A stretch of 64,000 bases of DNA, taken from positions 10,282,323-10,346,322 of the forward strand of contig JABAKD010000005.1 in assembly GCA_012845835.1 (NCBI GenBank), written 5' to 3'. Positions within the stretch are counted from its first letter, which is position 1. Every line of letters begins with the position of its first letter. The notes beneath the pieces were generated by a model. That model did no database searches, had not been told where the DNA came from, and was given only the letters and a program-made list of their open reading frames with translations. The stretch comes from Undaria pinnatifida. Its lineage: Eukaryota > Sar > Phaeophyceae > Laminariales > Alariaceae. A program made the position numbers and the translations under genes. Of this stretch, positions 12,492-51,500 are shown piece by piece.

Positions 12492-12680
12492 TCAAGCATC
12501 AAGCATGCCCTTCGCGAGCAGGGATTGGTCGTACGTCACGGCCTGGACCTGCCTCCCGGCGAAGAATCTTCCGTGCATTTTCCGCATGGATAATGCGGCC
12601 TCCCCAGGTGTGTTGTACACCACGAACACCCTCACGGCGACCACTGTGCCTCCCGACGCTCTTTGCTTGTGGACGTGGAA
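12492..12680 (-). CDS. PUF60: PUF60-like exon 10: end of the UHM and stop
   Basis: Exon 10 is 189 nt including TGA. It encodes FHVHKQRASGG, then TVVAVRVFVVYN, PGEAALSMRKMHG, GRFFAGRQVQAVTYDQ and the end SLLAKGMLDA. GRFFAGR carries the R-x-F motif that defines UHMs, and YDQ with a short acidic tail is the PUF60 ending. No clear polyadenylation signal is visible in the G-rich sense sequence after the stop. Confidence 0.93.
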   Translation of the reverse strand, partial: FHVHKQRASGGTVVAVRVFVVYNTPGEAALSMRKMHGRFFAGRQVQAVTYDQSLLAKGMLDA

Positions 12681-15600
12681 CTGGTTTGACGGTGGTCGAT
12701 GGATATAGCGGAGGGTAGGGTTAGGGTTGCGTTAGGGTAGCAGCGTAGAGCTGGGTGAGGGTAGGGTAGGGTTAGGGTTGGGTGAGGGAAGGGTAGGGTT
12801 AGGATGGGGTTGGATTAGGATAGGGTTGGGTTAGAGTTGGGCTAGGGTAGGGTTCAGTTAGGGTAGAGTTGGGTTAGGGTAGGGTTGGATTAGAGTAGGG
12901 ATAGGGTAGGGTAGGGTTGGGTTCGGGTAGGGTTGGGTAGCAGGGTAGGGTTGGGTGGCGGTAGGTTAGGGTAGGGTCGGGTGAGCGTAGGGTGGGGTTA
13001 GCGTAGGGGTTAGCGTAGGGTGGCGTTAGGGTAGCGTTGGGTTAGGGTAGGGTTGAGTTAACGCAAGGATGGGTTAGGGTAAGGTTGGGTTGGGGTAGGG
13101 TAGGGTCAGTCGGGTTGGGGTAGGGTAGGGTCAGTCGGGTTGGGTTCGGGTTGGGTTCGGGTAGGGTGAGGTACGGTCGAATTGGGGTATCGCACGGTGG
13201 CGATGGGGTATGGCACTGTTGGGATATACTTCTTCCGAACAAGTAGGATGGGGGTGGGCGTCTCTACAGCGGGTACGAATAGACTTCCTTCTACACTAAA
13301 ACATCTGCCCAGTATTGCACCACAGCTACATCTAGTCCACCTCTCCGTACGCAGTCTTATGTACTTCATACCGGTAAATTTTAATGATAAGCACTTTTCG
13401 CGGTTCGAATCCCTCCTGGAGAGGGTTACGGTTAGGGTGGTCCAACCGGATCCGACCCATGATATTTTAAACACGTCTTGACCCGACCCGGTTCGACCCG
13501 CGGGTTTTCGAAAACGTCCTGACCCGACCCGCGGGCCGGGCTATTAGGGTCCGTGAAAAGTCCTCCTATGATTTTCTATTTCTATTCATGAACGTAGGTT
13601 CACCTGCTGCACGGTTCCGCAAGTGCCCAACTCCTCGAAGATCTCCGCCTTCACATCCTCATCGTCCGCTTCTTCCGGTCCCAGCATATTCTGAACACAG
13701 TGATAAACACACACGTCACACGGCAGCAGCAGCAGCAGCAGCAAAATTGACAAGATAAATTGAAACCAAAACAACAAACCACCAAAAATAGAGCGGCGCC
13801 GCAGTCCGGGAAACAGCAGCCCTAACCCCGCCCCTCCATGAAAAAAAAACACACCACCATTGCCCGCCAGCGATTACAACAATCGGTTGTTGTTGCTGCT
13901 GCTGCTGCTGCCCCCCCCCCCCCAACCCCGGTGTACGCGACGCCTGCCTGCTCGGTGAAAACCCTAGTGTTCCGTCCCGGCACTCCAGGGTTGCGAGGTT
14001 CTATGGTTAGACGACTACGGCTGTGCATGATACGAGTACACCCCCCCCCCCCCCCCCCCCCCTCCCCACCCTCCACCCCGAATATATGTATGTATATATG
14101 TATTTGTATATATCTGAAATAGTTGGCCTCGGTTGGCACCGACGCTGTAAAACATTATATGTATTATTGGGGTTGGCGTTGGTTGGCAACGATGCTGTAA
14201 AACATGCCAGTCACTGCGTGAGCTAGACAATCAGGGTACCGTTTTTTTTTTTTGGCGGTCACCATGATGGCTATCGAGTTAGATCATATCGCGCGGGGTG
14301 GAGGACCCTACCTCCGCACAAGGGGAATGATCGATCACGTAGCGAGCACATGGTAAGGAACCCACGAGGCAGTTACATACAATACCCATTGCTGTCTCCT
14401 GGTGTGACCACACCAGAAAACAAAGTAAAACTCATTGACGCTACCATCCATACGCAAGAAAGTAGGCACAAGGTGCCGACGTCCGTCTTAAGAGCGGTTC
14501 TTGGAAGGATGCAGTTCACCCTTCATGCGACTCGCCGAACACCTCACGGAGCTTCGCGCTTGGTGCAAGCAATGTCTGCCAGGTTGGTGAAAACCCGAAA
14601 CGTGCTCCGTCCCGGCATAGTAGGGATGCAAGGGTCTATGGTCATACGACTACGACCATGCACAAACTGAGTACCCCTCCCCCCTCCCACCCTCGCTCAC
14701 CATCAAGCACATACACCGAGACGGCCCCACCCCCCCACCCCCCCCACCAGCTGCCGCCTGCTGATGCCCCTGCCCACCCCCAAGCCTCCTCATCAGCTCC
14801 GCGCGCTGCGCCGCCATAGCCGCCTGCGCCGCAGCATTCTGCTGGAACTGCTGCTGCTGTTGCTGTTGTTGCTGCTGATGCTGGTGTTGACCGTTAACCG
14901 CGGCTGCCGCAGCCATCGCTGCCGCCGCGCCCCCCCTACCCCCCGCCGCCATAACGCCGTTGCCACTATCGAAACCCGAATAGCGTTGCCCGGACGCGTT
15001 CATGCGATTCGAGCCCGCAGCGGAGGCGGCTTTGGCGGCCGTTGCTGCGGCTTGCGCGGCTGCCGCGGCGGGGGTCAAGCCGGGCGGGAGGACGGAGAGG
15101 GCTGGCTTGGATTGGTCCTGAGCCCAAGCTACACGTAGGGACCGTCCTGCGAGCTCGAAGCCCGACATTGTCTACGAGGAGGGCAGGGGAGGGGACAAGT
15201 GGGGGGAGGGAGTAGGGGAGGGGGTTGGTTGTGTTGTGTCGTGTATTCTTGTAAAAGTTTTTGCACTACACACGAAAAAAAAGGTGTACAAAACGCTCCC
15301 TCTTGCACAAACCAAGTACTTGACACGAACCAAGTACTTGTTTTGTGTTATGTTGTGTTCGACTAGGGCAACACGTCAGGAGACGGTCAGTCACGGGGAA
15401 AAACGTCCAGCGGTCAGTCAAGGGTGTAAAACCGATCGTTCCACAGTGAAACCTAGTAGTTCGGCGTCAGTCAAGGTAAACTGATGGAAAACTATCGTTG
15501 GGTCGGTCAGGAGGTGAAAGCCCCGTCTCTTGACATACTTTGTTTTGGTGCAGGGTGGGCTCCGTGGGTAAAGGCGCAAGGGAAACGGAAGAGGGAGTGA

Positions 15601-18600
15601 CAAGGACGAAAATATCGTGACAAGGCTGACCAGCCTACCGCCGAGAGTGCCACAGTAGGGACAACACATGACCAGGTGAACGTTTTCGTCGACAATTTTT
15701 CCGCCTCTTTTGTGTGTTTCAGGCTCTCTTTTCACCCTCTCGCCCCTCCCCTCGCGCGGGAGACAGAACGGCTACCTACAAACGACAGGCCAGCCGCTGG
15801 CTAGCGGGCCAGAAGCAACACCGATACAACGCTAAACTTCTACCACAAACGCGATCGACGGAAAAAAGGAACAGACGGACAGATGAGACCGACCGATTGA
15901 CTAATCCACGAAAAAACACAGAACGCTCCGATTGACCGACGCCAAACCCCGAATACATCAATTCAGGAACGATCCGAGGTCAAGGGTATCACATCACACA
16001 TCACACATCAAGTCAAGTCAAACCACGTCAACTCAAACGAAACAGTGCCCACCGTCCCACCCCCCTCCCCGAACCCTTTGGCTCCTCTCGACCCTTTGGA
16101 GAAATTCTGAGTCCGACTCACCTCAATCACCGTCTTCGCCACGCTCTCCTGCGCGTATTGGATGAAACCGAAGCCTTTGTGCTGCGGGCGAGGAGTAACA
16201 AGAACAAGAAAAAAAAAAACCGAAAAGTCAGAAAAGAAAACGAAAACAATTTTTTACCATAAAAAGGACAAAACAAAAAGAACATAAAACAACAAAAAAA
16301 AGGAACAAAATGGGTTACGGAATTATTAGCAAAAAATAGCGAAAAGAAGAGAACGAGCAAAAAAAAAAAACATAACTCACGGCGGCGGCGTATGTTAAGC
16401 CTCATCGGAAAAATACAATCCAAACACTCCAGATTTTGTTTTTAGCGTCATACCGCGGCCTATGTTATGCTTCGTGAAAGAAATACAGAACCAAACCACT
16501 CCAGCTATTGTTTAAAGAGTCATATCGCGGCTTATGTTACGCAACCAGTCCAGCTTTTGTTTATAACCCCTTTGCAACTGGAAACCCGTTTTGGGGACAT
16601 TACTTGGATTTAGTATGATGAGGGGTTCGGGGGCTCTTAAAGGGGTTAAAGAGTCATCCCGCTGCCTATGTTATGCTTCGTCGAAAATACAAAACAAGCC
16701 AGTCCAGATCTTGTTCAAAGAGTCATTCCGCGGTCTGTGGTATGCTTCGTCGAAAAAATACAAAACCAACCAGTCCATATTTTGTTTCAGAGCCATTCCA
16801 CGCTGGCAGTTGTCGGATACGCCGATAGAGTTCCTCAAGTGTGCAACTATGGGTTGGTTAGTACGACAATTTTTACGACGATATCTACTTGTCTCAAAGG
16901 ACTAGCGCATAGAGATGTGCTGGTCGGATTGCGCGGACGAACGCCTTCCAAGTCATATTTCGGGTGAAGGAAAATCTTGAGCTCTTCCTCATGGTAAGCA
17001 CTCAGAAATTTTCTAGAACATTCTGCACTTCTAGCGTGGGACGACGCTATATTCAGACCCCGAGCACCCAGATGTTCCACCCCACCGAAGCGGGTTCACA
17101 AAACACATCGCAAAGGTGAGGGGAGAGCGATAGATTCAACGTCTACGAACGGGTAGGAACTCAGAACCCCTCCCGACGGTGACCACAGAAGGCCAAAACA
17201 GGAACGAGACAAGCCAAGCTAAAACTTCTTATGCAACATAATGTATGCAAGACACGTTCAGAGCGCCCAAATGTTGGAGGTATCTCTAGTAGGAGTAGGA
17301 ACGGTGCTCCGTCTCGAAAGGGATGCGTGGTCAATGGTCAAACGACTAAGGCAGGCAACAAACAAGTACGCCCGACCCCCCCCCGTCGCCGAACACCTCA
17401 CGGCGCTTCGCGCTTGGTGCAAGCAATGTCTGCCTGGTTGAAAACCCGACGTGCTCCGTCCCGGCAAGGTAGGGATGCGAGGGTCTACGGTCATACGACT
17501 CCGGCCATGCACAAACTGAGTACACCCCCCCGTTTTCTTTCCCGTGGACATGAACATGCAGTATGCACAACAACCCTCCCCCTCCTTGCCCTCCCTGCAA
17601 CACCCAAATAACATGAGCGGCGGTTTGCACAACAACTCCCTCCCCCCGACAAATGAAGCTGCAGCAACCCTTCCCCCTCGCACTCTCCGATGTATACACA
17701 GCTGGAGAACGTCCCCCCCGCCTCGAGAACCTACGCCGCAGCATGCAAACCTAACAGTACCGTCGTTTCTCACGTGTCCAGGGTTGGAGGGATCGATGAC
17801 CATCTCCGCCCCTACTACCATGCCGAACGGCTCGAACACGGTTTTGATCATCTCCGTCGTGATGTGGGGCTCCACGTTCCCCACGTAGATTTTGGTCTGA
17901 GGCAGCGCCGTGGTCCTGTCAAGCGCAATGTTTCCGAAGCAAAAAAAAAAATAAGCGGCATGTTTCGGAGACAAAAGTGTTGGGACACTATTTGGAGCAG
18001 CTACAAAGGGATGTGCCTACACTCGAACCCTCCGCCGCAAACGAATACCCGGGTATGTAACAAACCTGGCAGTTTGGAATTAAGTCACATTACTTAAGTT
18101 GCTTATGTCAACATAGTGCCTCCACAACGCCTTCCCCCTCTGCCTCAACCTCATGAAAACCCACAAAAGCCATGGCAGTCGCACTACTACTCATACTACA
18201 ACATGGAAGTTTCATCAGGACAACTACACCCTCCCTGCCCCTCCCTCCCTCTTCTCCACGAAACCCCACATAGCCGGGGTAGCCTTGAAGGTACCCGTAG
18301 AAAAGCTGCACCAAGAACGACAAAAGCAGCCATAACGCACCAGCCCCGCTCCCTCTCATGAAAACATGAACCACTTACATAGCCATGGCAGCCTTGAGCT
18401 GTGCCGCGGCCACTCCTGCTCCTCCAGAGGTAGGAACAGCGGCCGCGGCGGAGCGCTGCGCCATGAAGGCCGCCATGCCGGGGAGCTGCATCGCCGACGA
18501 CAGACCCATGCCATCGATCCCGCCTGCAACGCCCGAAGCAGTGTTGTGCGGCCGCCCGACCTGGGGTTGCACGCAGCAGGCCGGGCACGCATGGGGGGCG

Positions 18601-21420: not shown

Positions 21421-21504
<84 letters not shown>

Positions 21505-42500: not shown

Positions 42501-45500
42501 TCAATTTGGTTTCCGAATGATATAAATAAACAAAACCAACGCGACACGTGCACCGCATGCCACCAATCGTTCTGCAGCTGCGATTGCACCAGACGCTTCC
42601 ATGGGACCGCTCAGGCGAACCCCATCTAGGCCCGGGCTGCTGTGCCGGGCTAGGTGGCAGTAACTTTAGAGCGTCCGCGCTACACAGTAAGAATATTCAC
42701 GAAATTGCAAGGGCGCAGCGTGCCACCGCTCGTTGCGCATGCGCGATTGCAGCTGGCGGTCGTTATCGATACACAGGACGCCTATGCAACAAAACTCCGA
42801 TATGGCCGGGCTGCTGTGATGGTCTACGGGATGGTAACCTTAGCAGCCGAGATACAAAGCACGACTATTGCCCGAAACGACACGGGCGAAGCGTGTGAAC
42901 ACTCCACTGCATGCGCGATCAAATCAGACCGTTGGTATGCGGGACAGCTGATGAAATCTTATCCCGTCGTTAGACCTGGGATCCAAAAGGGTTGAGCCGA
43001 CTCTAAGGGCACGAGTATCACATCTGTGAATCATCTGTGAATGTGATGTTAGTGAAAAAATGTACCCCCCGGGTACGCATCTTTTTTTGAGCTGTTCGTT
43101 CAAGTATACCGGTACTCGTATAATATGAGCGCAACAGCAGTATAACAGCGTATACTTCTCCGTGGTATGTAGGAACACGAATGAATGGCATGCTTAACTA
43201 CGAAAGAAGGAGGTACTTCCTCTATTTAATAGGGTAAACATTTCGTAAGTCGATACTCCTTCGTTATGCTGCACCTCTGGTCGAACATTCGTACATCAGG
43301 ATAACGCAGGGTATGAAACAACATCACCCTGTAACCCTGGTAAAACCCTGGTAATATGCTGCACCTCTGGTCGGACATACATCAAGATAACGCCGGGTAT
43401 GAAATAACATCACCCTGTAACCCTGGTAATAACCCTTGTAATACAAACCTGGAAACATAAACTCTGGCAATATGATTTAGGTCGGTGACTCCCCTCAGAA
43501 CTCGTAATATAAACCCTGGTGATATAATATAGGTCGGCGACTCCCCTTAGAACTCGTAATATAAACCCTGGTAATATGATATAGGTCGGCGACGCCCCTT
43601 AGAACCACGAGTCGTAGCTTGTACCAGGAGTCGCCGACCTACGCCTGTACAGCTGGAAACCCGGTTTTGGGACAAAAATTACTTTGGACTGGTATAGCGA
43701 GGGGTTTGAGGGCTCTCAAGGGGTTGATGAGGAGGCGCCCAGTAACACGCGTGATCGGAGAATCGCACACAGCTTGCAAGCATTAGTTTCGACGAAATCT
43801 TCGATCTCACATGCTGTAATATATCTTAATTTTCATAATTCAACACAAGCGAAAACAAGGGAGCCAAACAAGAGCATGTATCACCACGTACATCCCAACT
43901 TGGGCGGAAAACCAAGGACCGTCAGTGTACCATTAATGTAAAACACACCGAAATGATCCTTACGTTTCCGTCCACGGCGTGGTATGTAAACTATTGATAC
44001 ATAAGTAGCATAACATTATCCGCGGTGGGGGTTTCTCCGGGGGGACGTTTGTAGATTGCACGACAGATGCTAGACAACGTCGAGCAGGCCACGAAACCCC
44101 AGCAACGGACCCGTCGTCTTTAATTCCGTCAAAACAGCCCTCAAATCAGCTCATCACCGTCATCGATAGAAACAGCTAATATTACATTGCTGTTGCTGTT
44201 GTATAATATTAACAACTGCATTTCCTTGAGTACGTGTGACGCAGTGAAAGGTGACAATCTGCGGTGGTACTGCTGGCAGCTGGACATTGAATATAAACGG
44301 CGGTAATAATGGATTGACAGCAGCAGCAGCAGGAGGAGCAGCAGCCCTCGGTGCACCGCGAATGACATAAACCAGCACGTGCACGTACGGCTGCTTCGCT
44401 GCTGTTGCGCCAAGAACGAATACATTTACTCGGCACCATCATATCATTGTATTAGTCAACACTTACGACCAGCATACTGGTAAGACAAGCAGCGGCCGGT
44501 TCCTTACGAGGAGTTAGAGTATGTCTTGAACTATGACAGAACAAAAGCTGACGCCGTCAGAGAATTTTTATAAAATAACAACTACGGAACAGACCCTGGG
44601 CGATCTGGATGTATTTGATGAGCAGCAAAGAGCATTATGCGGATTATAGGACGGAACAGCGACATAAAAACGGCAAGCTGATATTACCAGCATGAAAATA
44701 AAATCGTGGGCCGGAATTTCAAAGTTATTCAATATACTAGGACAGAATCCACCCTCTCCCAAATAAGAATCCCAGCCTGGGACAAGTGCTTCTGTTCATC
44801 ATTTCGTAGACGTCCTGTATCAGTATACCAGTAATAATACGGACCTCGGGCCTCCTGCATGTCTTCGATAAGCAAGATGTATCCAACCGTCCGGTTCCAC
44901 TCATAGGTATACGAGTAATTATAGCGCAAATCGGTTTCACTGGGTTAGGGTTGGGGTATATAAAATTCAAAGAGTATGCCAACCGTGTTGTCGAAAAAGC
45001 GGTAAAGGTACCCTCCAAATCGATGCGAGTCGACTCCAGGGTCACACATTATTGTCCTTTTTCAACCATTTCACCCCGGTGACCCATTAGGGTACAGTCA
45101 TCGGTAGATTATATTTCCTATGGGTTAGGATTAGGGTTAGGGCTACTTCTATCCACTGTGAAAAACACAATCATGTAGGACACCCGTCGATTCGACGAGG
45201 GAAGCAAGGGTTCAAGTTTTTCCCGCGAATAAAAACGAAGGCGTACCGAATGTCGAAGTGGGGAGGGGGGAGAAGAGCCTGCCTGTCACATAGTAACCCC
45301 GGATCTAAGTTACGACTCTTAATAGGGAGGGAGAAGGAGAAAAAAAACGAGTCAAGACAACGGATGGGATGAGCGACAAAAAAAACGACCAAGAGGGTGG
45401 TAAGAGGGCGTTATCCGACGGGCCCAGTAAAAACGTTCAGCGGTACGACACCACCGTCTTGCCTGCGCGCACATTGTATAGCTCCTTACACTGCAACTCC

Positions 45501-48500
45501 TCGCGCATGCCGAACCCCAGCAGACCCGACTGGTTCGTGTGACCGACGCTGTACTCGTCATCAAATATCGACACTTCTCTCCAGATGGGAAATGCCCGAC
45601 CAAAAGGGGCTAAACGTGAAACATAACAACCGCACGCACGCACGCACGCACGCACGCACGAGAACAAGGTCTTACGCGTAGAGAGTGTGGGCTGCACCTC
45701 TTCAACTCTTATAGCTTTTGCTGGTGAGAAGCCTTTACTCGCCGCTTAACGGTTGCGACTTTGGTAGATTTGACTCGTAATTACAGCACCCATCGGAGAG
45801 TTTGGATGAAGGACGGAAGAAGCACGACTTCAAGCAAACGCCAAGAAACACTCCTTCTGAGCAACAGCAGCAGTGAGAATGCAGCTGACCCAACCACGTC
45901 CGATGTTCGACACCAGATTCGCGTTGTATCTGTTGTTTTCCACCTATTGTCCTTTCATGAGCTTGCGCCCGCGGTATTAATCCTCCCACAGCCACACAGC
46001 ATCTATCATAGCAACTATTGCTGAACCAAGATAAATACACAGTTGTGTTTTAAGCGTTTCGTTGTATTATTTTCTCATGGGTCATGCGACTATCGACTAC
46101 GACACGCTACGAGTACTGATGTACTGCTGTGTAATGGACCTGGCCTACGATACAAGGTACTGGCTTGCCCTCCGCAACCACCAGCTCACCAGTTATCATG
46201 ATGGCATTATACCGTAACCTGTACCCCGTGTTAGATACTTGCACCTGACATAATATGCCGCCGTGTCATACCGGGTGCGTACTTCGGCTACGGTACGCAC
46301 TCGTACACCAGTACTGCTGCTGAACCTGGTAGAACCCGGTATGGGTTCAGAGTGTATAGACAGAGCGGTACCGGTAGCCCCCCTGCTCTACAGAATATTT
46401 GTCAACGATACACCGGTACGCCGCTCGGGAATGGAGACCCTGATCGCACAATTTCCCTGCATTATACCAGGTACTTTGTTCAAAGTAAACTCTTTTTGCC
46501 GATAAGTGACTGCTGCGAGCGCTTAGCAGTGTGTGTGGCGCAGTTCGATGCGAGTCGACGAGGGAAGGAAGGACTAGACTCTTCTCGCGATAACAATTAA
46601 GGCACGTGCCGCGGTGGGGAGTAGGGAGAACAGCCTGCGTCGTGATCCTAGATGTGAGCTACGTTTATTTTTAATAGGGAGACAAAGAGAAAAAAAACGA
46701 GAAAAACATTAAATGGAAGGATGGGCAACAAAAAGCATTAGTGGGAAAATGTGTAAAATGCGATCGTAGGGGTACAATTAGTAGGAGTCGATTTGACCGC
46801 GCCGAACCACACAAATAATGATCAGATCAGAGTACAGTCTACCTCCTTTATTATAAAAAATGAAAATACACTCCAGCTGTGAGATCGAAGATTTCGTCGA
46901 AACTCATCTTGTGCAAGCTGTGTGTGATACTCCGATCGCGCGCATTACGAGTTTATATCGTGCCAACTCAAATATGGACTATATATCTGAATCTCCTTCG
47001 GGGCCTGCCGCTCTGCTACAGCGCTAAGCTGTACCTACCTGCCTACCCCGTTCACACGTGTTGGAACATTTATGTATCTTGATCTTTTTAAACTGTCATA
47101 CGACCTTACCTTGATCTCCTTTTACACTGTCGTCATTTTTTTCGGCGACGACCCGGATTTGTATCAATCTGCATATTTGCCTATTTGCAGTAAAATCTCG
47201 CAAAAAGAAAAAAAAATATCACGAAGAGCTAAAAACAAAAAAAAACTTCTACTTTTGTGGTGGAACGTCGTGCCGCCATGTTGACTGTTCCCAGGTTCAC
47301 GGCGGTGCATACTAGTATTAGAGTGCATATGGTACATAAATGTCAACACTTGGATCTAGAGGTAGATGCTATACACTTGGAGTTAGAGGTAGGCGCAATA
47401 TACATGGTGCCAGGTACACTGGAATCCAATTCCAGAGGGCGAGAGGGTCGTGATATATTTCACTGTAATTTCATCACTTTTCTATAGAGCGGTTTGTGAC
47501 TCACTTGAAAGCTCCCGGTAATTCGAAAATAAGGGTATTATAGCCTCCCCCTACGGTGAACTACCCAGCAGCAGCAGCAAGTGGTGCCGACAGCAGCAGT
47601 AGCAGTAGCGGCAGCTACAGCAGCAGCAGCGCCGTTTTCGTAGGGTGATGTATACTTATGGAGCCACTACGCATATGCAGCCGTGATCCTTCGTTAGTGC
47701 GGCGCCTTGCCAGCCGATCATAACCGCACTAAAGTGGGACCCCGCACTATCCTGTGATGGTGCGCCATGGTACTAATCTTGACGGCAAGCGAGGTCGTTT
47801 GACAAACGATTACCACCGCATTAAACTGGGACCGCACTAAAGAGTACCGCACTAACGCGCGATCACGCCTGTAGCTGGGTTGACTCCTCTACGGGTCGAC
47901 ATTGGTACGAAATTCAAGTCTGTCCACAAGTCAAACACGACGTACGCGCAACGCACAGCCCAGTAAGGAAACAACTTTACCAGGTACACTCCACTTCGCT
48001 CGCAGGATTATTTTCCTTGCAGGATAAAAACCTCGGATAGCCAGTGCAGTAGTCAAGTACTTCCGCCGTTTCCGCCGCCGCTGCGGTTTAGAGCGAGTGA
48101 TGCGTGTTGTTCAATAACATTTGAATACGCGCTGTTGTGCTGCCACGAAAGAATTGCCTCCCGCGCAAGAAGCATACGAACTGTCCAGCCTTGCTCTGCT
48201 GCTGCCGGCTGTCGCCAACCAAGCGTTCGTCCAATCTCTAATAATACCTTGCCGAAAAGACTGCGTACCTCTCACATCCCAGGTATACTTTTTTTTTTCC
48301 CCCACACATTTCTACTTACCAGCTTCTGGACAAGCCGTGGTCACAGGTGTCGTCCCTTCTTTCCCCCCCCCGGTTCTTGACTTCAATTTGTATCGCGCAT
48401 GGGTTTCAGCAATCCCACCGCTCGGCGATTTTTAATTTTCACCGAGTATTGCTAACTCACGCTCTCGCGCTTTCCGCAAGTCAATTTGTGCACAAGAAAA

Positions 48501-50347
48501 ATTCTTCACGAATTATTCGAGTATGCACTCGGCGGGACTCGAACCCAAGAAACTGACCTATACCAGGCTCGAGGATAACCTGATACGCCACCGGGGCGAC
48601 CGGCTATCAATAGTGAGCGTGTACCATGACGTATATGGCGAGCTGTTAGAAACCTCCCCCCCCCGCCCCCCCACCCACCCACCCCCTCGAACACTCCGCC
48701 CTCTCCTCACTGGCTGTACGACTTACAGGATATTATACAAGATAAACTGGTGCATTCCTCCCAAAACCGTCAGATTTATCCCCTTGAAGGATATAGTTTC
48801 CACGCACAGATAGAGTTGCCCCCCCCCCCCGCGCGCTCTCTCTTGTTCAAACCCATGCCCCCACGCCCTTCAAAATCCCGCCCTCCCCTCACCGGTTATA
48901 CGACTTACAGGATGCACTTGATAAACTGATGCATTTCCTTCCACAGCTGTCGAATTTTGTCCCCCTCAAAAACGGGTTTAATAGTTTCCGCGCACAGAAT
49001 AACTAACATCACCACTGTAGTTCCAAGGGGAGTCGCCGAGCTATATCCTTAATGAGGACACACAACCCGTAATACGCGCGATCGGAGTATCACACACAGC
49101 TTGCAAAGATGAGTTTCGACAAAATCTTCGATCTCACAGCTGGAGTGTATTTTAATTTTTATAATATAGCGAGCAGTGTTCCACCATGTCATGTTGCAGA
49201 GTTGTTATCGCATAAACCCGCATAATCAAGTTGGTGGAATAACATCCATGATCGTACAGCACTTCTATGTAACATCGTAAAACACCGCACAAATAGGGAG
49301 AATGAAGTACGAGAAAAAACCGTCACATCATTGCCAAACTTCGCCAAGTGAAGCAGACAGGTGAGACAAAACAGGAAGCAGCATGCTCACGGCGAAAGTG
49401 CACACAGCAGACTAAAGAAGTATGGCTTGCACGGCCATCGTTCCCCTCAGTCAATTCCTCAGACATGAACAAAAAATGAAAGAAACCGAGAGAGCGACGA
49501 TTTCATTGCTGCGTCGACCCATTTTCGATTTTCTCCACGGTTCAGCTCCAATTTCGACTCATTGGCAATAATTATGGTGTCTGTTTCAAAGTGTGTGACC
49601 ACATGATTTTAACAAATGAAAAAATACAGCAGTTCATTCAACTGTGAGATCGACCACAAAGGATTTTTATCAAAACTCAGCTTTGCAAGCTGCGTGTGAT
49701 ACTTTGATCGCGCACCACATAATTTGTAAGGATCAACAATCAGGACGGACGGACACTGGGTGTGCTGATGGTGTGTGCGTTATGTGTTTGCGCCCATGGC
49801 GCTTGTTATGTATGTGCGGCTGATGCTGTCACTGGGCAGAGAGAAGACAGCATGCATATATCAAATCTTCAAAGGCAACACACAAAAAGCTCAGAACTCA
49901 AAACGATTCGTACGGTGACGGCCGGTAGGGACAGCTCGCGCTGCCGCTACCTCGGTAACTGAAGGATACGCCAGCTAGTGCTGGTATGCGAATGCAATTC
50001 GAGTTAAATTGACACAGGGATACACGAAAATACGTGGAAGCATGGTGATGAGCCTGAGCATTACTTTTGCCCAATGCATCCGCCGGCGCAATAAGAATGG
50101 CTTGGATTTTCGATTTTTTTGTCGCCCTCTATCCCCCGCCCCGGCAATCAATACTTTCACTGAGTATATTAATGCGAGCACGAAAAAACTGAACTTCGTA
50201 TCAAAATTCCACATACCTACCAGTTAAAAAAGTGCAATTGGAAAAGTGTACTCAAAATTCAAAAATGACACCGATGATCCAAAACAATGAATCACGAGCA
50301 GTAAAAGAGTCACGCCGCGATAAACGAAGGTCCGCCCCGGTGTACCG

Positions 50348-50423
<76 letters not shown>

Positions 50424-51320
50424 GAACAAAGCAAGCACAAAGCAAGCAAGCAAACAAAGCAAGTAAGCAGCAAGCCAGCCAGCAAGTGGAGGCCACACAC
50501 GCACCCCCTCCCGCTCCCCGAGGCCCAGCTCTTCTCTTACCTGGAGAGGGTTCATAGGTACAGCCGGCGCCGCTGCTGCTGGCTTGGGCGCATCCCCCCA
50601 GCCTTTCGAAACTGTCTCAGCCGAAGGTGTATCCCAGCCTCCTCGCCTCGTGCGCTTCTTTCTAGGTTGTTCCGCGGAGGCGGCCGTGACGGCGTCACCT
50701 CCCTCTTTGCCGGCACCTCCTCCCCCAGCCTCGGCGGCGGCTGCAGCAGCCGCTTTGATGGCTGCAGCAGCCATGGCTTCAATTGCTGCGGGAGTCTCAT
50801 CCTCATCATCAGCAGCAGCCGCAGCAACGGCGGCGGCAGCGACAGCAGCGACAACAGCAGCATCAGCATCAGGAGCAGCTGATGGATTTTTTTCGGGCTC
50901 ACCGCTGTTTTCTTCCGGGCACTCCATCGGTGACGCAGAGGATGCGGAGGGCGGCGCTGTCAACGCCACCGCTGCTGTTTCTGCACCGGGAGAAGTGGCG
51001 GTAGCCCCGGGGGACGCTGACACTGAATCCGCAGCGTCAGTGTCAACAACACTCGCGGCGTCAGAAGGCTTGGGTGCAGCAGCAGAGGCGGCAACCGCAG
51101 CGGCAGCAGCAGCCGGAGCACCCGCACCAGAACCAGAAGTCTCGTCAACAGCCTGGGATTCCTCAGATGGAGGAGCAACTTCGGCGACGGGTGCATCGTC
51201 GTTCTCCGGGGTGGTCATTGTTGCGGGCGGGACTTTAAGGTCGCTGGAAGGGGAGGAGGTTGTCTCCAGAGCATCTTCTGACCGGTACGAGGTCGCCCTT
51301 ATATCCATGGTATCAGCCAT
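12492..51320 (-). CDS. PUF60: PUF60-like poly(U)-binding splicing factor, complete gene in 10 coding exons
   Basis: Known role of the family: nuclear U2AF65-related protein that binds pyrimidine tracts and helps the U2 snRNP choose 3' splice sites. Seen here: exons 51320-50541, 22556-22395, 21601-21540, 20541-20376, 18560-18379, 17915-17774, 16181-16122, 15171-14701, 13690-13604, 12680-12492 join in frame to 766 residues. RRM1 is about residues 319-391 (RNP2 IYVGSL, RNP1 KGFCFIEY). RRM2 is about 459-532 (IYVGNV, KGFGFIQY). The UHM is about 671-765, with acidic helix EEADDED, the R-x-F motif in GRFFAGR (742-744) and YDQ near the end as in animal PUF60. The first ATG of the exon 1 frame has good context (ACCATGG). 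The N-terminal 260 residues are longer than in animal PUF60. The YDQ ending favours PUF60 over U2AF65 or RBM39. Identity is from remembered family sequences, not a search. Confidence 0.9.
12681..13603 (-). other. Intron 9, carrying telomere-like repeats
   Basis: The intron is 923 nt and about half of it is degenerate GGGTTAGGGTAGG-type repeat on the plus strand (12712-13175). On the sense strand this is a CCCTAACCCTACC run ending about 30 nt upstream of the acceptor ACCAG of exon 10, so it probably acts as the pyrimidine tract. A short GACCC-type patch lies at 13440-13545. Confidence 0.85.
12712..13175 (+). repeat. Interstitial telomere-like repeats in intron 9
   Basis: Degenerate GGGTTAGGGTAGGGTTG units run over about 460 bp, mixing TTAGGG, GTAGGG and TTGGGT. 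On the gene's sense strand they read CCCTAACCCTACC and end close to the exon 10 acceptor. Whether they come from a former telomere or grew by slippage cannot be told from sequence. Confidence 0.9.
13604..13690 (-). CDS. PUF60: PUF60-like exon 9: acidic helix of the UHM
   Basis: This 87-nt exon of 29 codons, phase 0 at both ends, encodes NMLGPEEADDEDVKAEIFEE and then LGTCGTVQQ. It matches the family segment [20 protein letters not shown]. Acidic residues in this helix are the usual contact for basic residues of UHM ligand motifs. The acceptor is GTTCAG and the donor is CAG|GTGAAC. Confidence 0.93.
13691..14700 (-). other. Intron 8, mostly an element R copy
   Basis: This intron is 1010 nt and about three quarters of it is the element R3 region (13925-14690). 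The exon 9-proximal part holds a GCA/CAG triplet stretch at 13715-13743 and a CTG/CAA-rich patch at 13880-13912. The donor is GTGAGC and the acceptor is GTTCAG. Confidence 0.85.
13925..14690 (+). repeat. Element R, copy 3, in intron 8
   Basis: A head block (13930-14060, ending GAGTACACCCC and a long C run), the TTGGCCTCGGTTGGCACCGA block at 14123, a dyad at 14287-14322 and the tail CACAAACTGAGTACCCC at 14655-14680. It lies antisense to the gene and ends within about 10-25 nt of the exon 8 donor. Confidence 0.78.
14701..15171 (-). CDS. PUF60: PUF60-like exon 8: end of RRM2, Ala/Gln/Gly linker, first UHM strand
   Basis: Exon 8 is 471 nt, 157 codons. TMSGFELAGRSLRVAWAQDQ closes RRM2. Then come alanine-rich repeats, a His/Gln tract of about ten glutamines (CAG/CAA mixed), AAQRAELMRRLGGGQ, a polyglycine run and SRCMCLM, which is the first beta strand of the UHM. 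The acceptor CCTCGTAG follows a good pyrimidine tract and the donor is ATG|GTGAGC. The mixed CAG/CAA and GGG codons suggest repeat-length polymorphism. An element R copy starts about 10-25 nt beyond the donor. Confidence 0.9.
15172..16121 (-). other. Intron 7
   Basis: 950 nt with donor GTGAGTC and acceptor CGTAG. The sense strand before the acceptor is C/T-rich. No repeat family recognised apart from a short GTCAG-rich patch near 15370-15520. Confidence 0.8.
16122..16181 (-). CDS. PUF60: PUF60-like exon 7: RNP1 of RRM2
   Basis: A 60-nt exon of exactly 20 codons, phase 0 at both ends, encoding HKGFGFIQYAQESVAKTVIE. KGFGFIQY is the RNP1 strand. The acceptor is CGCCCGCAG and the donor is GAG|GTGAGTC. 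Because it is small and in phase, skipping it would remove the RNA-contacting RNP1 strand of RRM2 without changing frame. Confidence 0.93.
16380..16810 (+). repeat. Diverged about 70-bp tandem repeat interrupted by element T
   Basis: Five or six units carry TATGTTATGCTTCGTCGAAA, then AATACAAAACCA, CCAGTCCA and TTGTTTAAAGAGTCAT. One unit is split by element T4 at 16563-16649, which makes the insertion site readable. Confidence 0.75.
16563..16649 (+). mobile_element. Element T4: about 88-bp TTAA-flanked miniature inverted-repeat element
   Basis: The ends are TAACCCCTTT and AAAGGGGTTA. The inner block GAAACCCGTTTTGGGGACA and TTACTTGGATTTAGTATGAT is common to all copies. The neighbouring tandem units read TGTTTAAAGAG without the insert. 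TTAA stands intact on the right side and slightly changed (TATAA) on the left, which fits a TTAA target duplication as used by piggyBac-type elements. It has no coding capacity. Confidence 0.7.
17253..17535 (+). repeat. Element R, copy 4 (internally deleted), in intron 6
   Basis: The head GAGCGCCCAAATGTTGGAGG through CTCGAAAGGGATGCGTGGTC and a C run is joined directly to the tail segment GCCGAACACCTCACGGCGCT, which ends in CTGAGTACACCCCC. The long middle present in copies 1-3 is absent. Confidence 0.75.
17774..17915 (-). CDS. PUF60: PUF60-like exon 6: start of RRM2
   Basis: Exon 6 is 142 nt. After the split methionine codon it encodes TTALPQTKIYVGNVEPHITT and continues to the turn DPSNPGH. 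RNP2 is IYVGNV. FEPFG is the end of helix 1. The acceptor is GACAG and the donor is CAC|GTGAGA, phase 0. Exon 7 continues HKGFGF, as in the family pattern (DPTTGKHKGYGF). Confidence 0.92.
17916..18378 (-). other. Intron 5
   Basis: 463 nt, the shortest intron. Donor GTAAGT, acceptor TTGACAG. The sense strand has a T-run (TTTTTTTTTTT) about 30 nt before the acceptor. No mobile element seen. Confidence 0.85.
18379..18560 (-). CDS. PUF60: PUF60-like exon 5: RRM1-RRM2 linker
   Basis: This 182-nt exon begins VGRPHNTASG, closing RRM1 exactly as the family does, and continues as a Gly/Met/Ala-rich linker ending AAQLKAAMA plus two nucleotides (AT). The donor is AT|GTAAGT and the acceptor is CCCCAG. 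A copy of element R ends about 40 nt before the acceptor, so its cytosine tract lies where the polypyrimidine tract should be. Confidence 0.9.
18604..18718 (-). repeat. Element R, copy 5 (head only), beside the exon 5 acceptor
   Basis: The reverse complement of 17253-17365 with about nine in ten bases matching over roughly 110 bp by eye. On the sense strand its cytosine end (TACGCCCCCC) sits about 38 nt before the acceptor of exon 5. Confidence 0.8.
18843..18932 (+). mobile_element. Element T5
   Basis: Starts TTAACGCCTTTACAACTTG and ends GAAGGGGATAA, with the family core ACTTGGAATTAGTATAGGAA. Together with T6 it forms an inverted pair. Confidence 0.7.
18939..19030 (-). mobile_element. Element T6
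   Basis: The reverse complement starts TTAACCCCTTCACAAGGGGA and ends AAAAGGGTTTTAA. It lies 6 bp from T5 in opposite orientation. Confidence 0.7.
19195..19445 (-). repeat. Element R, copy 6 (tail only), in intron 4
   Basis: The reverse complement of the tail part of element R: GTGTACTCAGTTTGTGCATG, then GGAGGGAGCACGTCGGG, and GTCGCATGAAGGGTGAAC through AAGAACCGCTCGTAAGACGG. It is truncated beyond about 19445. Confidence 0.75.
20376..20541 (-). CDS. PUF60: PUF60-like exon 4: rest of RRM1
   Basis: Exon 4 is 166 nt. It encodes AIFAAFGALKFVDMSHDPST, then GRHKGFCFIEY and the final helix and strand AMNGFELAGRAIK. RNP1 is KGFCFIEY. The acceptor is TTTGTTTAG and the donor is AAG|GTGCGC. The next residues, VGRP in exon 5, complete the IKVGRP end that is typical of PUF60 RRM1. 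Confidence 0.93.
20542..21539 (-). other. Intron 3, carrying the ATCT array
   Basis: The intron is 998 nt, with donor GTGAGA and acceptor GTTTAG. Its donor-proximal 430 nt are an ATCT tetranucleotide array, (AGAT)n on the sense strand, that begins about 30 nt inside the intron. The remainder is low-complexity, T- and C-rich on the sense strand. Confidence 0.85.
21111..21508 (+). repeat. ATCT tetranucleotide array in intron 3
   Basis: About 400 bp of ATCT, interrupted in the first half and nearly pure from about 21420. It reads AGAT on the sense strand and begins about 30 nt after the exon 3 donor. Confidence 0.95.
21540..21601 (-). CDS. PUF60: PUF60-like exon 3: start of RRM1
   Basis: This 62-nt exon encodes DNPRRIYVGSLHYELKESDI plus two nucleotides. 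IYVGSL is the RNP2 strand of RRM1, and SLHYELKESDI matches the first helix region of animal PUF60 (SIYYELGEDTI). The acceptor is ACCAG and the donor is AC|GTGAGA, phase 2. Joined to exon 4 it restores the family spacing up to AAFG. Confidence 0.9.
21602..22394 (-). other. Intron 2, carrying the GGGA array
   Basis: This 793-nt intron is dominated by a GGGA tetranucleotide array on the plus strand, read as (CCCT)n on the transcribed sense strand. Between the array and the acceptor the sense strand has no AG until ATGACCAG directly before exon 3, so the acceptor choice is unambiguous. Confidence 0.8.
21820..22170 (+). repeat. GGGA tetranucleotide array in intron 2
   Basis: Mostly GGGAGGGA, purest at 21870-22050, with GGAC and GTAG interruptions and a G12 run near 22100. 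On the sense strand it is an uninterrupted pyrimidine run, (CCCT)n. Confidence 0.95.
22395..22556 (-). CDS. PUF60: PUF60-like exon 2: linker before RRM1
   Basis: Exon 2 has 54 codons, phase 0 at both ends. It encodes ELQRKLAEEQVAAAMGKAPP and then an Ala/Gly/Met-rich stretch ending AAAAAPAVP. Its charged start may correspond to the helical, glutamine-rich segment that precedes RRM1 in animal PUF60. The donor is CCG|GTAAGG. The closing APAVP resembles the end of exon 1 (APAVPMNP), and exon 3 continues DNP, so the two boundaries could descend from a small duplication. Confidence 0.82.
22580..25640 (-). other. Sense-strand pyrimidine-rich end of intron 1
   Basis: About 3 kb whose minus strand is rich in C and T, with few breaks, including C15-20 runs near 23720 and 25107. 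Open frames on the minus strand read Phe/Leu/Ser/Cys/Pro-rich peptides, which is a consequence of the bias. No gene or mobile element recognised. Confidence 0.6.
26020..26130 (-). repeat. Family B copy 1 (partial)
   Basis: The reverse complement of the family B 3' part: GTTGACACA, GTATGAAAATACGTGG and TTTTCCC before GCCGG. Family B copies end in an A-rich tail. Confidence 0.55.
26365..26483 (+). repeat. Family B copy 2
   Basis: GCTGCGAAAGCAACTGAGTT, GACACACGACGCGTATGAAA, AGCTTTATTTTTCCCCATCC, GCCGGAGGATA and then A18. The oligo(A) end suggests spread through RNA. Confidence 0.7.
26484..27615. other. Gene-less part of intron 1
   Basis: No coding signal. It contains a short family C fragment at 26885-26985 (GGCAAGACGCGGTGC twice) and a perfect 26-bp palindrome at 27420-27445. 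Confidence 0.4.
27420..27445. repeat. Perfect 26-bp palindrome of TAGC units
   Basis: GGTAGCTAGC...GCTAGCTACC reads the same on both strands. It is a short (TAGC)n array. Confidence 0.9.
27620..27805 (+). repeat. Family B copy 3
   Basis: A fuller copy: GCACCGCCGGTAGGGACAGC, TCGCGCT, GGAACTGAAGGACACGC, CAGCTGGATTGCGAATACAA, and the 3' part ending GCCGGAGAATAATAAAAAAA. Confidence 0.7.
28118..28439 (+). mobile_element. tRNA-derived SINE, copy 1
   Basis: The 5' part has pol III promoter boxes: an A-box-like TGGCGCATCAGG at 28135-28146 and a B-box-like GAGTTCGAGTCC at 28188-28199. The body contains AAATTGACTTGCGGAAAGCG and GGATTGCTGAACCCAATGCG, then GACGAAACCTGTGACAATGG. The copy ends in A9. The same order occurs at 32724-33029 and, inverted, at 48283-48606. 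Confidence 0.82.
29105..29345 (+). repeat. Family A copy 1
   Basis: Starts near GTTTCCGCGCACAGACTGAT and contains TCACCCTGTTGACCCTGGTA, AAGGGGAGTCGCCGACCTAT, ATCACACACAGCTTGCAAAG and AAATCTTCGATCTCACAGCT, ending T/A-rich. No coding capacity. At least eight full or partial copies lie in intron 1. Confidence 0.75.
29865..29985 (-). repeat. Family A copy 2 (3' half)
   Basis: The reverse complement of the family A right half (CTCCAGCTGTGATATCGAAG, then GATTTCGTCGAAACTCACC). It is inverted relative to copy 1, some 500 bp away. Confidence 0.7.
30000..31385. other. Gene-less part of intron 1
   Basis: Mixed sequence. At 30895-31230 it resembles diverged family C (GTCGAGAAGAGAAGACGCGCC, GAACCACGGCCGGCGGCACC). 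The 140-codon minus frame at 30810-31232 has no recognisable domain. Confidence 0.35.
31390..31810 (+). repeat. Family C, two diverged units in tandem
   Basis: Two units at about 31390-31560 and 31640-31800 share CTCGGGGG, GGCACA/GCGCC, GATAGCTAGCTCGT and CTTCTCGTTAACCGCTT. Confidence 0.5.
32413..32728 (+). repeat. About 60-bp minisatellite beside SINE copy 2
   Basis: Five to six units carry ACAACACCGCACTCGACGCT, TTTCAGGTCGAGTTACCC and GGGCCAGGA. The array runs directly into SINE copy 2. Confidence 0.75.
32724..33029 (+). mobile_element. tRNA-derived SINE, copy 2
   Basis: A-box TGGCGTATCAGG at 32731-32742 and B-box GAGTTCGAATCC at 32775-32786. The body matches copy 1 (AAATTGACTTGCGGAAAGCG, GGGATTGCTGAACCCTATGC, TTGTCCAGAAGCTGGAAAGT) and the end is A-rich. 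Confidence 0.82.
33190..33375 (+). repeat. Family B copy 4
   Basis: GGAACTGGAGGATACGCCAG, ACTACAATTGAGTTAATTTG, GTGTGAAAATACGTGGACG and TTTTTCCCTATATCCGACGG, followed by AGGATAAAATACACAAAAA. Confidence 0.7.
33376..34190. other. Gene-less part of intron 1
   Basis: No repeat family or coding signal recognised. Overlapping open frames at 33594-34110 on both strands have no known domain. Confidence 0.35.
34195..34450 (+). repeat. Family C copy
   Basis: TTTGGACGCTGAGCGTGCTC, GACAGGACCAA, GGAAGACGCGCCGGGTGCGC, ACAGAGAACCACCGCC and CATCTACAGCTCGTCGTCAC occur in the same order at 35205-35475. Ends near TTCTCGTTAAG. Confidence 0.6.
35205..35475 (+). repeat. Family C copy
   Basis: TTTGGACGCAGAGCGTGTTC, GACAGGACCAA, CAGAGACGCACCGCCAGCGC and ACACAGAGAGCCACCGCCAC match 34195-34450. 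A shorter related piece lies at 35650-35760. Confidence 0.6.
36145..36360 (-). repeat. Family A copy 3
   Basis: The reverse complement contains both halves of family A: the CACAGCTGGAGTG/GATCGAAGATTTCGTCG part, TATAGGCCGGCGACTCCCCT and CCAGGGTCAACAGGGTGACG, up to GTGCACGGAAACT. Confidence 0.75.
36361..37780. other. Gene-less part of intron 1
   Basis: Short local duplications only: GTTCAACGCCAGTTCCACCA versus GTTCAACGCTATTCCACCAG at 36785-36865, and GTCAGGTAGGTACC twice near 37265-37305. No coding signal. Confidence 0.35.
37780..38360 (+). repeat. Locally duplicated CATTCTTGCTGTTGCTCTGA block
   Basis: CATACGGCTG, TTCTTGCTGTTGC and CTGACC...TTC..ACCA recur four to five times between 37800 and 38335, and GAATTCGCAGTGTGGCAACG recurs three times. 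A diverged tandem duplication. Confidence 0.5.
38730..38860 (-). repeat. Family H copy 1
   Basis: CCCAGTTTAGTGCGGTGATA, ATCGCTTGTTTACGACCTCG and ATAGTGCGTGGTCCC match the reverse complement of 47705-47865. Confidence 0.6.
39233..39296 (+). mobile_element. tRNA-derived SINE, 3' fragment
   Basis: ATAAGGGACGACACCTGTGA and CCAGAAGCTGGAAAGTAG, then A13, match the 3' end of the SINE copies. The tRNA-related part is missing. Confidence 0.65.
39807..39895 (-). mobile_element. Element T7
   Basis: Begins TTAGCCCCTTAAAAGCCCC and ends AAAGGATTCAA, with the core ACTAATTCCAAGTA. Diverged ends. Confidence 0.6.
40145..40234 (-). mobile_element. Element T8
   Basis: Begins TTAACCCCTTTAGAGCCCCC and ends GGAGGGGTCAA, so the inverted ends are well preserved. 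Core ACTAAATCCGAGTAAATTTG. Confidence 0.7.
40337..40514 (+). repeat. Family B copy 5
   Basis: A full copy: GTGACCGCCGGTAGGGGCAG, CGGAACTGAAGGATACGCCA, GCTGGATTGCGCGTACAATT, ACACGTATGAAAATACGTGG and CCATCCGTCGGAGGATAAAA, then A-rich. Confidence 0.72.
40815..40925 (-). repeat. Family B copy 6
   Basis: The reverse complement of the family B 3' half, preceded on the plus strand by T10. It lies opposite to copy 5, 300 bp away. Confidence 0.65.
41200..41415 (-). repeat. Family A copy 4
   Basis: GCTGTGAGATCGACCAAAAA, CTCAGCTCTGCAAGCCGCGT, ACAGGTCGGCGACTCCCCTG and GCCAGGGTCAACAGGACTAA. More diverged than the other copies. Confidence 0.65.
41605..41740 (+). repeat. Family G copy 1
   Basis: TTCGACGCGAGTCGACGAGA, GTGGGGAGAGGGGAGAAGAG, CCTGCC and TAGGGAGGAAGAAAGAAAAA. 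Shared with 45183-45360 and 46545-46715 in the same orientation, A-rich at the end. Confidence 0.65.
42177..42930 (+). repeat. Diverged 110-190 bp tandem repeat, about five units
   Basis: Each unit has CCACCACTCGTTCTGCATGC, GCGAT, TAGGGACCGCTC and, in most, CCGGGCTGCTGTGCCGGGCT. The cores fall near 42280, 42450, 42560, 42725 and 42905. Confidence 0.7.
43310..43625 (+). repeat. About 60-bp tandem units related to family A
   Basis: ACATCACCCTGTAACCCTGG recurs near 43320 and 43405. TATAGGTCGGCGACTCCCCT, TAGAACTCGTAATATAAACC recurs three times from 43470. These are pieces of family A amplified in tandem. Confidence 0.65.
43638..43727 (+). mobile_element. Element T9
   Basis: ACGCCTGTACAGCTGGAAAC through CTTTGGACTGGTATAGCGAG to CTCTCAAGGGGTTGA. 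Left end diverged, right end good. Confidence 0.6.
43735..43840 (+). repeat. Family A copy 5 (right half)
   Basis: GTGATCGGAGAATCGCACAC, AGCTTGCAAGCATTAGTTTC, GACGAAATCTTCGATCTCAC. Confidence 0.65.
43841..45180. other. Gene-less part of intron 1
   Basis: A triplet-rich GCAGCAGCAGC patch at 44320-44345 and short telomere-like GGGTTAGGGTT at 44940 and 45124-45146. No gene seen. Confidence 0.35.
45183..45360 (+). repeat. Family G copy 2
   Basis: GTCGATTCGACGAGGGAAGC, GTGGGGAGGGGGGAGAAGAG, CCTGCCTG, TAATAGGGAGGGAGAAGGAG and then A8. Confidence 0.65.
45631..45660 (+). repeat. CGCA tetranucleotide array
   Basis: Seven and a half units of CGCA. Confidence 0.9.
46545..46715 (+). repeat. Family G copy 3
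   Basis: TTCGATGCGAGTCGACGAGG, GTGGGGAGTAGGGAGAACAG, CCTGCGTC, TAATAGGGAGACAAAGAG and then A8. Confidence 0.65.
46850..46960 (-). repeat. Family A copy 6 (right half)
   Basis: CTCCAGCTGTGAGATCGAAG, ATTTCGTCGAAACTCATC, CTCCGATCGCGCGCATTA. Confidence 0.7.
47560..47640 (+). repeat. CAG/CAN triplet patch
   Basis: Interrupted AGC triplets. No associated open frame of interest. Confidence 0.7.
47705..47865 (+). repeat. Family H copy 2
   Basis: AACCGCACTAAAGTGGGACC near the left and GACCGCACTAAAGAGTACCG near the right. The inner part CGAGGTCGTTTGACAAACGA matches copy 1 at 38730-38860 inverted. Confidence 0.6.
48283..48606 (-). mobile_element. tRNA-derived SINE, copy 3
   Basis: Read on the minus strand: CCGGTCGCCCCGG leads into A-box TGGCGTATCAGG (48590-48579), then B-box GGGTTCGAGTCC (48546-48535). 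The T-arm-like GGG-TTCGAGT-CCC is better paired than in the other copies. The body is as in copy 1 and it ends GTGTGGGGGAAAAAAAAAA. Confidence 0.84.
48970..49168 (+). repeat. Family A copy 7
   Basis: GTTTCCGCGCACAGAATAAC, AAGGGGAGTCGCCGAGCTAT, ATCCTTAATGAGGACACACA, TATCACACACAGCTTGCAAA and ATCTTCGATCTCACAGCTGG. Very close to copy 1 at 29105-29345. Confidence 0.78.
49610..49725 (-). repeat. Family A copy 8 (right half)
   Basis: AACTGTGAGATCGACCACAA, AAACTCAGCTTTGCAAGCTG, TGTGATACTTTGATCGCGCA. Inverted relative to copy 7. Confidence 0.65.
49912..50095 (+). repeat. Family B copy 7
   Basis: GTACGGTGACGGCCGGTAGG, GACAGCTCGCGCTGCC, AACTGAAGGATACGCCAGCT, CGAAAATACGTGGAAGCATG and CATCCGCCGGCGCAATAAGA. 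The A-tail is lost. Confidence 0.7.
50347..50487 (+). repeat. AAGC tetranucleotide array in intron 1
   Basis: Perfect to 50422, then interrupted. It reads GCTT on the sense strand and begins about 55 nt after the exon 1 donor. Confidence 0.93.
50541..51320 (-). CDS. PUF60: PUF60-like exon 1: acidic alanine-rich N-terminal region with basic/Trp motif
   Basis: Exon 1 is 780 nt, exactly 260 codons, and ends in phase 0 at CAG|GTAAGAG. It starts MADTMDIRATS and is low-complexity: Ser/Thr/Pro/Glu-rich at first, then alanine runs broken by acidic patches such as ADDEDETP. Near its end lies KKRTRRGGWDTP (residues 221-232), followed by a second tryptophan in KGWGDAP (W241). The basic run could serve as a nuclear localisation signal. 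Together with the tryptophan it resembles UHM-ligand motifs of SF3B1, SF1 and U2AF65. No other in-frame ATG lies upstream within this open frame. The link to exon 2 rests on matching phase, a strong donor, composition and the lack of any other partner on this strand. It spans 28 kb and is the weakest junction of the model. Confidence 0.78.
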
Positions 51321-51500
51321 GGTACTCCTGTCCACTACTCTGAGGCCTTGTGTTCCTCGAGGGTTTTTCACGGAGGTTTCACTTAGGTATGGAAGCGTGC
51401 TATTCAGGGTACAGGGGATATGCACGATTTGGGATCTTCACTGCTGTTCATCATCGGGGCGTCATTCGTTCGCGTATCGTTTTGCTGTGAATAATTAGAC
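51321..51500 (-). promoter_or_regulatory. Presumed 5' UTR / promoter-proximal region of the PUF60-like gene
   Basis: This sequence lies immediately upstream of the ATG. The exon 1 frame stays open to 51425 but has no ATG in it, so translation should start at 51320. I see no convincing TATA box. The transcription start cannot be placed by eye, and the label is positional only. Confidence 0.25.

Follow-up and report, generated by a model that had tools for sequence, protein, structure and literature searches.

The 64,000-nucleotide stretch of the Undaria pinnatifida genome analysed here (the window; C52:10282323-10346322) carries on its minus strand a new PUF60-like splicing factor gene of a brown alga, ordinary in kind: with its ten exons it is probably the PUF60-type gene of this kelp, and its protein most likely has the function known for PUF60 in other organisms. 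Rebuilt from splice sites and reading frames, the exons rejoin into 2301 nt of coding sequence (766 amino acids and a stop codon) spanning 51320-12492, with the frame intact across all joins, GT-AG borders at nine introns of nine and a start codon in the context ACCATGG. This rebuilding returned the same coordinates as an earlier sequence-only reading, which had described a complete minus-strand gene of ten exons with canonical splice sites and no frame error, and it bore out the remark that no single open frame contains the whole gene, its 2301 coding nucleotides being split over ten exons. RRM1, RRM2 and the UHM, all three of which had been claimed, are each built from two or three exons and yet are complete as domains across the joins. 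The exon 9/10 junction was the single join found open to choice; the acceptor at 12680, which reads QQ-FHVHKQ, keeps the UHM in the register of human PUF60. Intron 1 was recomputed at 27,984 nt, as claimed before, and the other eight introns measure 463-1815 nt, so that they are 15 to 60 times shorter. The features are as follows.

50541..51320, minus strand: exon 1, with the ATG and an acidic, Ala-rich, low-complexity N-terminus; 260 codons, phase 0 end at CAG|GTAAGA
50613..50663, minus strand: ULM-like motif RKKRTRRGG-W229-DTPSAET (RKKRTRRGGWDTPSAET), residues 220-236, near the end of exon 1
22557..50540, minus strand: intron 1, 27,984 nt, GT-AG, with many short dispersed repeats
22557..25400, minus strand: pyrimidine-rich block, 70.4% C+T on the transcript strand, 2.8 kb, ending at exon 2
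22395..22556, minus strand: exon 2, 162 nt, phase 0-0; the first in-frame ATG is residue 275
21602..22394, minus strand: intron 2, with 76% C+T on the transcript strand and a (TCCC)n array at 21797-22176
21540..21601, minus strand: exon 3, start of RRM1 (RIYVGSLHYEL)
20376..20541, minus strand: exon 4, remainder of RRM1 (KGFCFIEY)
18379..18560, minus strand: exon 5, linker between RRM1 and RRM2
17774..17915, minus strand: exon 6, start of RRM2 (KIYVGNV)
16122..16181, minus strand: exon 7, RRM2 (KGFGFIQY)
14701..15171, minus strand: exon 8, end of RRM2, Ala/Gln-rich linker and start of the UHM
13604..13690, minus strand: exon 9, UHM
12492..12680, minus strand: exon 10, end of the UHM with R742-F-F (the RXF motif), stop codon
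310-882, 2009-2543, 14100-14688, 17386-17533 and 19205-19445: copies of one dispersed repeat family (among the matches listed), several of them within the gene's introns

Since exon 2 is 162 nt long and in phase 0 at both ends, its skipping would keep the reading frame; the same holds for exons 7, 8 and 9, but their loss would break RRM2 or the UHM. A search of the genome (511,146,479 bases in 68 contigs) with the 766-residue protein, in which 59 of 103 candidates were scored, reported 14 matches: the ten exons, once each and all in the window, and four lone RRMs outside it, the best of them 41% identical, on C50. No retrocopy of the gene appeared among these 59 scored candidates.

PUF60-type is the best reading of the protein because its RRM1 and UHM match PUF60 and because the genome holds distinct RBM39-like and U2AF65-like genes. 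Pfam finds three RRM_1 stretches in it, the RNP motifs and the RXF motif are intact by sequence, and the general RNA-binding domain model NF058537 scores above its cut-off (113.4 vs 100). Compared directly, RRM1 gives 77.9 bits with PUF60 RRM1 (53% identity), more than with RBM39 RRM2 (64.1 bits), and 36.9 bits with the available stretch of U2AF65 RRM2; against the PDB, domain by domain, it gives 75.5 bits with PUF60, 70.7 with RBM39 and 62.1 with U2AF65. For the UHM the scores are 49.5 bits (PUF60), 30.1 (SPF45), 27.4 (U2AF65) and 26.9 (RBM39), a margin of 19 bits for PUF60 over the next family. RRM2 leans to RBM39, giving 61.1 bits with RBM39 RRM2 and 51.2 with PUF60 RRM2 in direct comparison, and 73.0 bits with TIA-1, 64.5 with RBM39 RRM2 and 53.7 with PUF60 RRM2 as a single domain against the PDB; the whole-chain score of 92.3 that PUF60 receives for the RRM2 query is higher because it sums the two PUF60 RRMs. 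Within PUF60 it prefers RRM2 to RRM1 (51.2 vs 38.2 bits), and in a tree of nine RRM rows it sits on a long branch, its place unsettled, with five of the six inner branches open.

Whole-protein profiles rank the families differently. SF-CC1 (TIGR01622) comes first in NCBIfam with 199.9 bits (cut-off 231.65), U2AF_lg (TIGR01642) second with 132.4 (cut-off 310.3) and half-pint (TIGR01645) third with 125.6 (cut-off 443.95), all three scores lying below the cut-offs. It had been laid down beforehand that a best profile match to RBM39 would change the name, and on that check, SF-CC1 being first although below its cut-off, the outcome formally goes against PUF60. As a naming test the whole-protein ranking was set aside, SF-CC1 being under its cut-off and RRM1 and the UHM disagreeing with it; RRM2 agrees with it, on the RBM39 side. 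The family name proposed from the letters alone therefore stands for RRM1, for the UHM and with regard to the separate RBM39-like and U2AF65-like genes, and is drawn into doubt by RRM2, which is nearer RBM39, and by the top NCBIfam model. We take an NCBIfam cut-off as a naming threshold and not as a biological feature, hence our wording "PUF60-type".

The gene could instead be a second RBM39/CC1-like factor, a U2AF65-like one, or a branch older than the split between PUF60 and RBM39 (RBM39 is described as a paralogue of PUF60 in the available part of PMC6093180). Such a reading would account for SF-CC1 topping NCBIfam, for U2AF_lg scoring above half-pint and for RRM2 alone standing nearer RBM39 RRM2 than PUF60 RRM2, but PUF60 is the best match of both RRM1 and the UHM, with a 19-bit lead in the case of the UHM, and elsewhere the genome has an RBM39-like gene and a U2AF65-like gene, each with its domain matches in order; we consider it very unlikely. 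The RBM39-like gene (C52:1178500-1188490) shares a contig with the PUF60-type gene and has four SF-CC1 matches in order at 1181279-1186086; read by eye, its exons resemble RBM39, including a UHM with GRWFAG, and the best single-domain matches of its RRM2 are RBM23 (55.6 bits) and RBM39 (54.8 bits), poly(A)-binding protein topping the list because its score sums four RRMs. The U2AF65-like gene (C13:1051000-1066990) has four U2AF_lg matches in order at 1053687-1065154, the best of 76.8 bits; its UHM, also read by eye, has GRQF, and its RRM2 scores 66.4 bits with U2AF65 vs 52.5 with PUF60. The PUF60-type gene is distinct from both. Further U2AF_lg-like matches lie at C28:15.16 Mb, C22:11.99 Mb and C37:1.14 Mb.

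Set beside the known systems, the kelp protein shares with PUF60/FIR/half-pint (human, PDB 2qfj and 3ue2) the order RRM1-RRM2-UHM and a long linker between RRM2 and the UHM, and human PUF60 is the closest to its RRM1 and UHM, with RNP and RXF motifs kept. There are a number of differences: (i), the kelp protein has a 260-residue exon-1 tail with a ULM-like motif, and human PUF60 is reported, in the available part of PMC6093180, to be without an N-terminal ULM; (ii), the kelp linker between RRM1 and RRM2 is longer and its RXF reads R-F-F where the human one reads R-W-F; (iii), the kelp RRM2 alone scores higher with RBM39. Should a ULM-like site precede RRM1-RRM2-UHM, the layout would be that of U2AF65 (U2AF2), from which the kelp protein nevertheless differs in its lower domain scores with U2AF65, in the absence of an apparent Arg-Ser-rich domain in exon 1, and in the existence of the separate U2AF65-like gene on C13. 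With RBM39/CC1 it shares the RRM-RRM-UHM architecture, the top whole-protein NCBIfam score and an RRM2 that, of the three families, is closest to RBM39 RRM2; it differs in a UHM that gives 49.5 bits with PUF60 vs 26.9 with RBM39, in an RRM1 of the PUF60 RRM1 kind, and in that a separate RBM39-like gene is present at C52:1.18 Mb.

That exon 1 belongs to the gene is suggested indirectly, by its phase and splice site, by its codon score and by a change in strand skew close to its 3' end, and we infer that it is part of the main transcript. Exons 1 and 2 meet phase 0 to phase 0 and the exon 1 donor, CAG|GTAAGA, is strong. On a codon score trained on exons 2-10, which are Ala-rich like exon 1, exon 1 reaches 0.226 in the gene frame, the top of its six frames (the next, an open antisense frame, has 0.118), and 454 windows of 780 nt along intron 1 reach a best-of-six maximum of 0.025, under the value of exon 1. 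Exon 1 has a lower G+C at third codon positions (about 0.49) than exons 2-10 (0.71). Exon 1 is the sole genome match reported for residues 1-265 (59 of 103 candidates scored), and a comparison of exons 1-2 with solved structures gave one match only, which at E 0.92 was taken as chance. On the plus strand, antisense to exon 1, runs a stop-free frame of 343 codons (50467-51495), probably a by-product of the Ala-rich codons.

The strand skew has a wider context. When the interval 25.4-50.4 kb is divided into 2.5-kb bins, all ten show an excess of T runs over A runs on the minus strand, with no such excess upstream of exon 1 (25 T vs 32 A runs) and with an excess again downstream of the gene (41 vs 22). 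The best single change point of the T-minus-A skew within 26-64 kb falls at 50,500, just inside intron 1 (p 0.008; 2000 permutations), and with the main tandem repeats masked at 50,278 (p 0.006); once homopolymers are masked as well it moves to 54,788 and loses significance (p 0.13), for which reason we count the skew as a modest sign of exon 1 transcription. Thirteen RRM-gene loci (L009-L020 and L036), oriented by their RRM match, hold 430 T vs 232 A runs, with an excess in ten and the opposite in the other three, and the T-run excess is possibly a general strand bias of transcribed kelp sequence.

Two other accounts of exon 1 have to be weighed. The main transcript could start within intron 1 near the pyrimidine-rich block, with translation from Met275 or from an unseen short exon and with exon 1 belonging elsewhere or being an alternative; a start at Met275 would give a product of 492 residues that keeps both RRMs and the UHM. 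The in-frame ATG of exon 2 upstream of RRM1, the sharp change of strand composition at about 25.4 kb and the lower third-position G+C of exon 1 would fit such a start, but the strong phase-0 donor of exon 1 fits exon 2, its codon use is coding-like, the strand skew begins at exon 1, and no other home for exon 1 is seen, none of 121 intron 1 frames matching Pfam; we judge an internal start unlikely. It is hardly credible, in turn, that exon 1 and exons 2-10 were joined by an assembly error and that the 28-kb intron is not real: the interval is repeat-rich in a long-read assembly scaffolded with Hi-C (available part of PMC7058681), and repeats can cause misjoins, but the window is without N, phase and splice sites fit across the gap, and the T-run excess keeps one sign throughout intron 1. 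The ten-exon gene with exon 1 in its main transcript is the model that we retain.

The length of intron 1 is, taken alone, a weak argument for regulation in kelps and the least interesting part of the gene. The available part of a report on the related kelp Saccharina japonica gives a mean intron of 1,816 bp and a mean gene of 12,489 bp (PMC11836290); by these means the other eight introns are of ordinary size, and intron 1, at 28 kb, is long without being disproportionate. A scan for nested genes or transposon proteins, covering 121 stop-free frames of at least 85 aa in 22.9-50.2 kb, gave no match to Pfam at E<=0.01. Outside the pyrimidine-rich block, intron 1 is occupied by many short dispersed repeats that, among the matches listed, recur in other loci (L001-L020); none of the dispersed-repeat matches listed (150 of 188, by position; loci L001-L020) falls between 19,445 and 26,352. 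An (AAGC)n array at 50348-50486 starts about 55 nt into the intron, past the exon 1 donor.

Two leads, the strand-specific pyrimidine block and the ULM-like motif, are new here and are put forward as proposals. The pyrimidine block, which may hint at regulation, carries 7.4 T runs of at least five per kb and no A run of at least five, and the best 2-kb pyrimidine value in the gene is 0.73. Among the controls, the sense strand of 12 RRM-gene loci does not exceed 0.574, the RBM39 locus has 0.563, and neither strand goes above 0.572 in the two U2AF65 loci or above 0.598 at 12 arbitrary places; antisense at one RRM-gene locus (L020) it is 0.674, beside a very purine-rich stretch. Taken together, none of 27 control loci reaches 0.70 and 26 stay under 0.60, and three other stretches of the window have 0.45-0.56. 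As a whole the block occurs once in the genome, the 64 other matches being short and partial in a search that skips simple repeats. A PUF60-type protein could bind this block ahead of exon 2 in its own transcript.

The second lead is a putative ULM in exon 1, which may likewise be a hint at regulation. UHM ligand motifs combine basic residues with a key tryptophan, and the arginine of the SF3B1 ligand that fills a pocket of the PUF60 UHM stands next to that tryptophan. The residue before W229 is Gly and not basic, and since SF3B1 has Arg at this place the fit to a ULM is imperfect. The exon 1 motif has Asp at W+1 and the protein's own UHM has R-F-F as RXF; according to the available part of PMC2791216, Asp after Trp is conserved among the ULMs with strong binding to UHMs in which the X of RXF is aromatic (Y or W), and the available part of PMC7648758 has an Arg of the SF3B1 ligand filling a pocket of the PUF60 UHM. 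In six-frame translations of the window and other loci (535,680 residues), 8 of 992 W[DENQ] sites have at least five K/R in the preceding nine residues, a criterion set after the motif had been seen; one string is counted twice among the eight because loci overlap, and Asp follows the Trp in two of them. Human PUF60 is stated, in the portion of PMC6093180 at hand, to have neither the RS domain nor the ULM that U2AF65 carries N-terminally, and no RS domain is apparent in the exon 1 translation. Titles and abstract openings among the papers listed, from a collection without most subscription papers, showed nothing on this gene or on a ULM-bearing PUF60.

How the gene would work can be sketched from its family. 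Transcription on the minus strand would begin a little upstream of 51320 and end near 12.4 kb, followed by splicing of the ten exons. We infer the RNA binding and the partners of the kelp PUF60-type protein from relatives: RRM1 and RRM2 would hold U-rich RNA near the branch point and the 3' splice site, and the C-terminal UHM would dock on the tryptophan motif (ULM) of SF3B1 or another partner and help U2 snRNP to bind, the docking partner in animals being the ULM of SF3B1 (available part of PMC6093180). Exon 1 would add an acidic, Ala-rich tail ending in the ULM-like motif and supply a second contact of the ligand type, which could engage the UHM of the protein itself, of another PUF60 molecule or of U2AF35. 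In its full form the proposal is that the N-terminal ULM, separated by 28 kb from the remaining coding sequence, is functional and recognises UHMs whose RXF is aromatic, that of the same protein among them, and that self-binding at the pyrimidine block controls the use of exon 1 and exon 2; in our estimate this is doubtful. If true, the kelp PUF60 would be laid out like U2AF65 and could fold back on its own UHM, form dimers or bring in a small subunit.

The analysis provides the exact structure of a brown algal gene for a core 3' splice-site factor, and PUF60-, RBM39- and U2AF65-type genes are shown together in one kelp genome. If the exon 1 motif binds a UHM, the split between a U2AF65 with a ULM and a PUF60 without one would fail across eukaryotes; and should the protein bind the pyrimidine block of its own transcript, the gene would be a compact system in which to study how a polypyrimidine-binding factor regulates itself.

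As to the rest of the window, no RNA family reached its gathering score in it and no tRNA was found, and among viral contigs no relative was confirmed. A Pfam scan of 83 frames outside the gene, which left out frames below 4.8 kb and those starting in the array at 6.3-7.05 kb, gave a single match at E<=0.01, a weak one to DUF2793 (E 0.00055). The intervals 2781-4752 and 6525-7009 hold long arrays of CCATGGGAGAC-like units and (CGGGT)n. Among the matches listed, the dispersed repeat family whose copies are given above, about 78-91% alike, is also present in loci L010 and L020.
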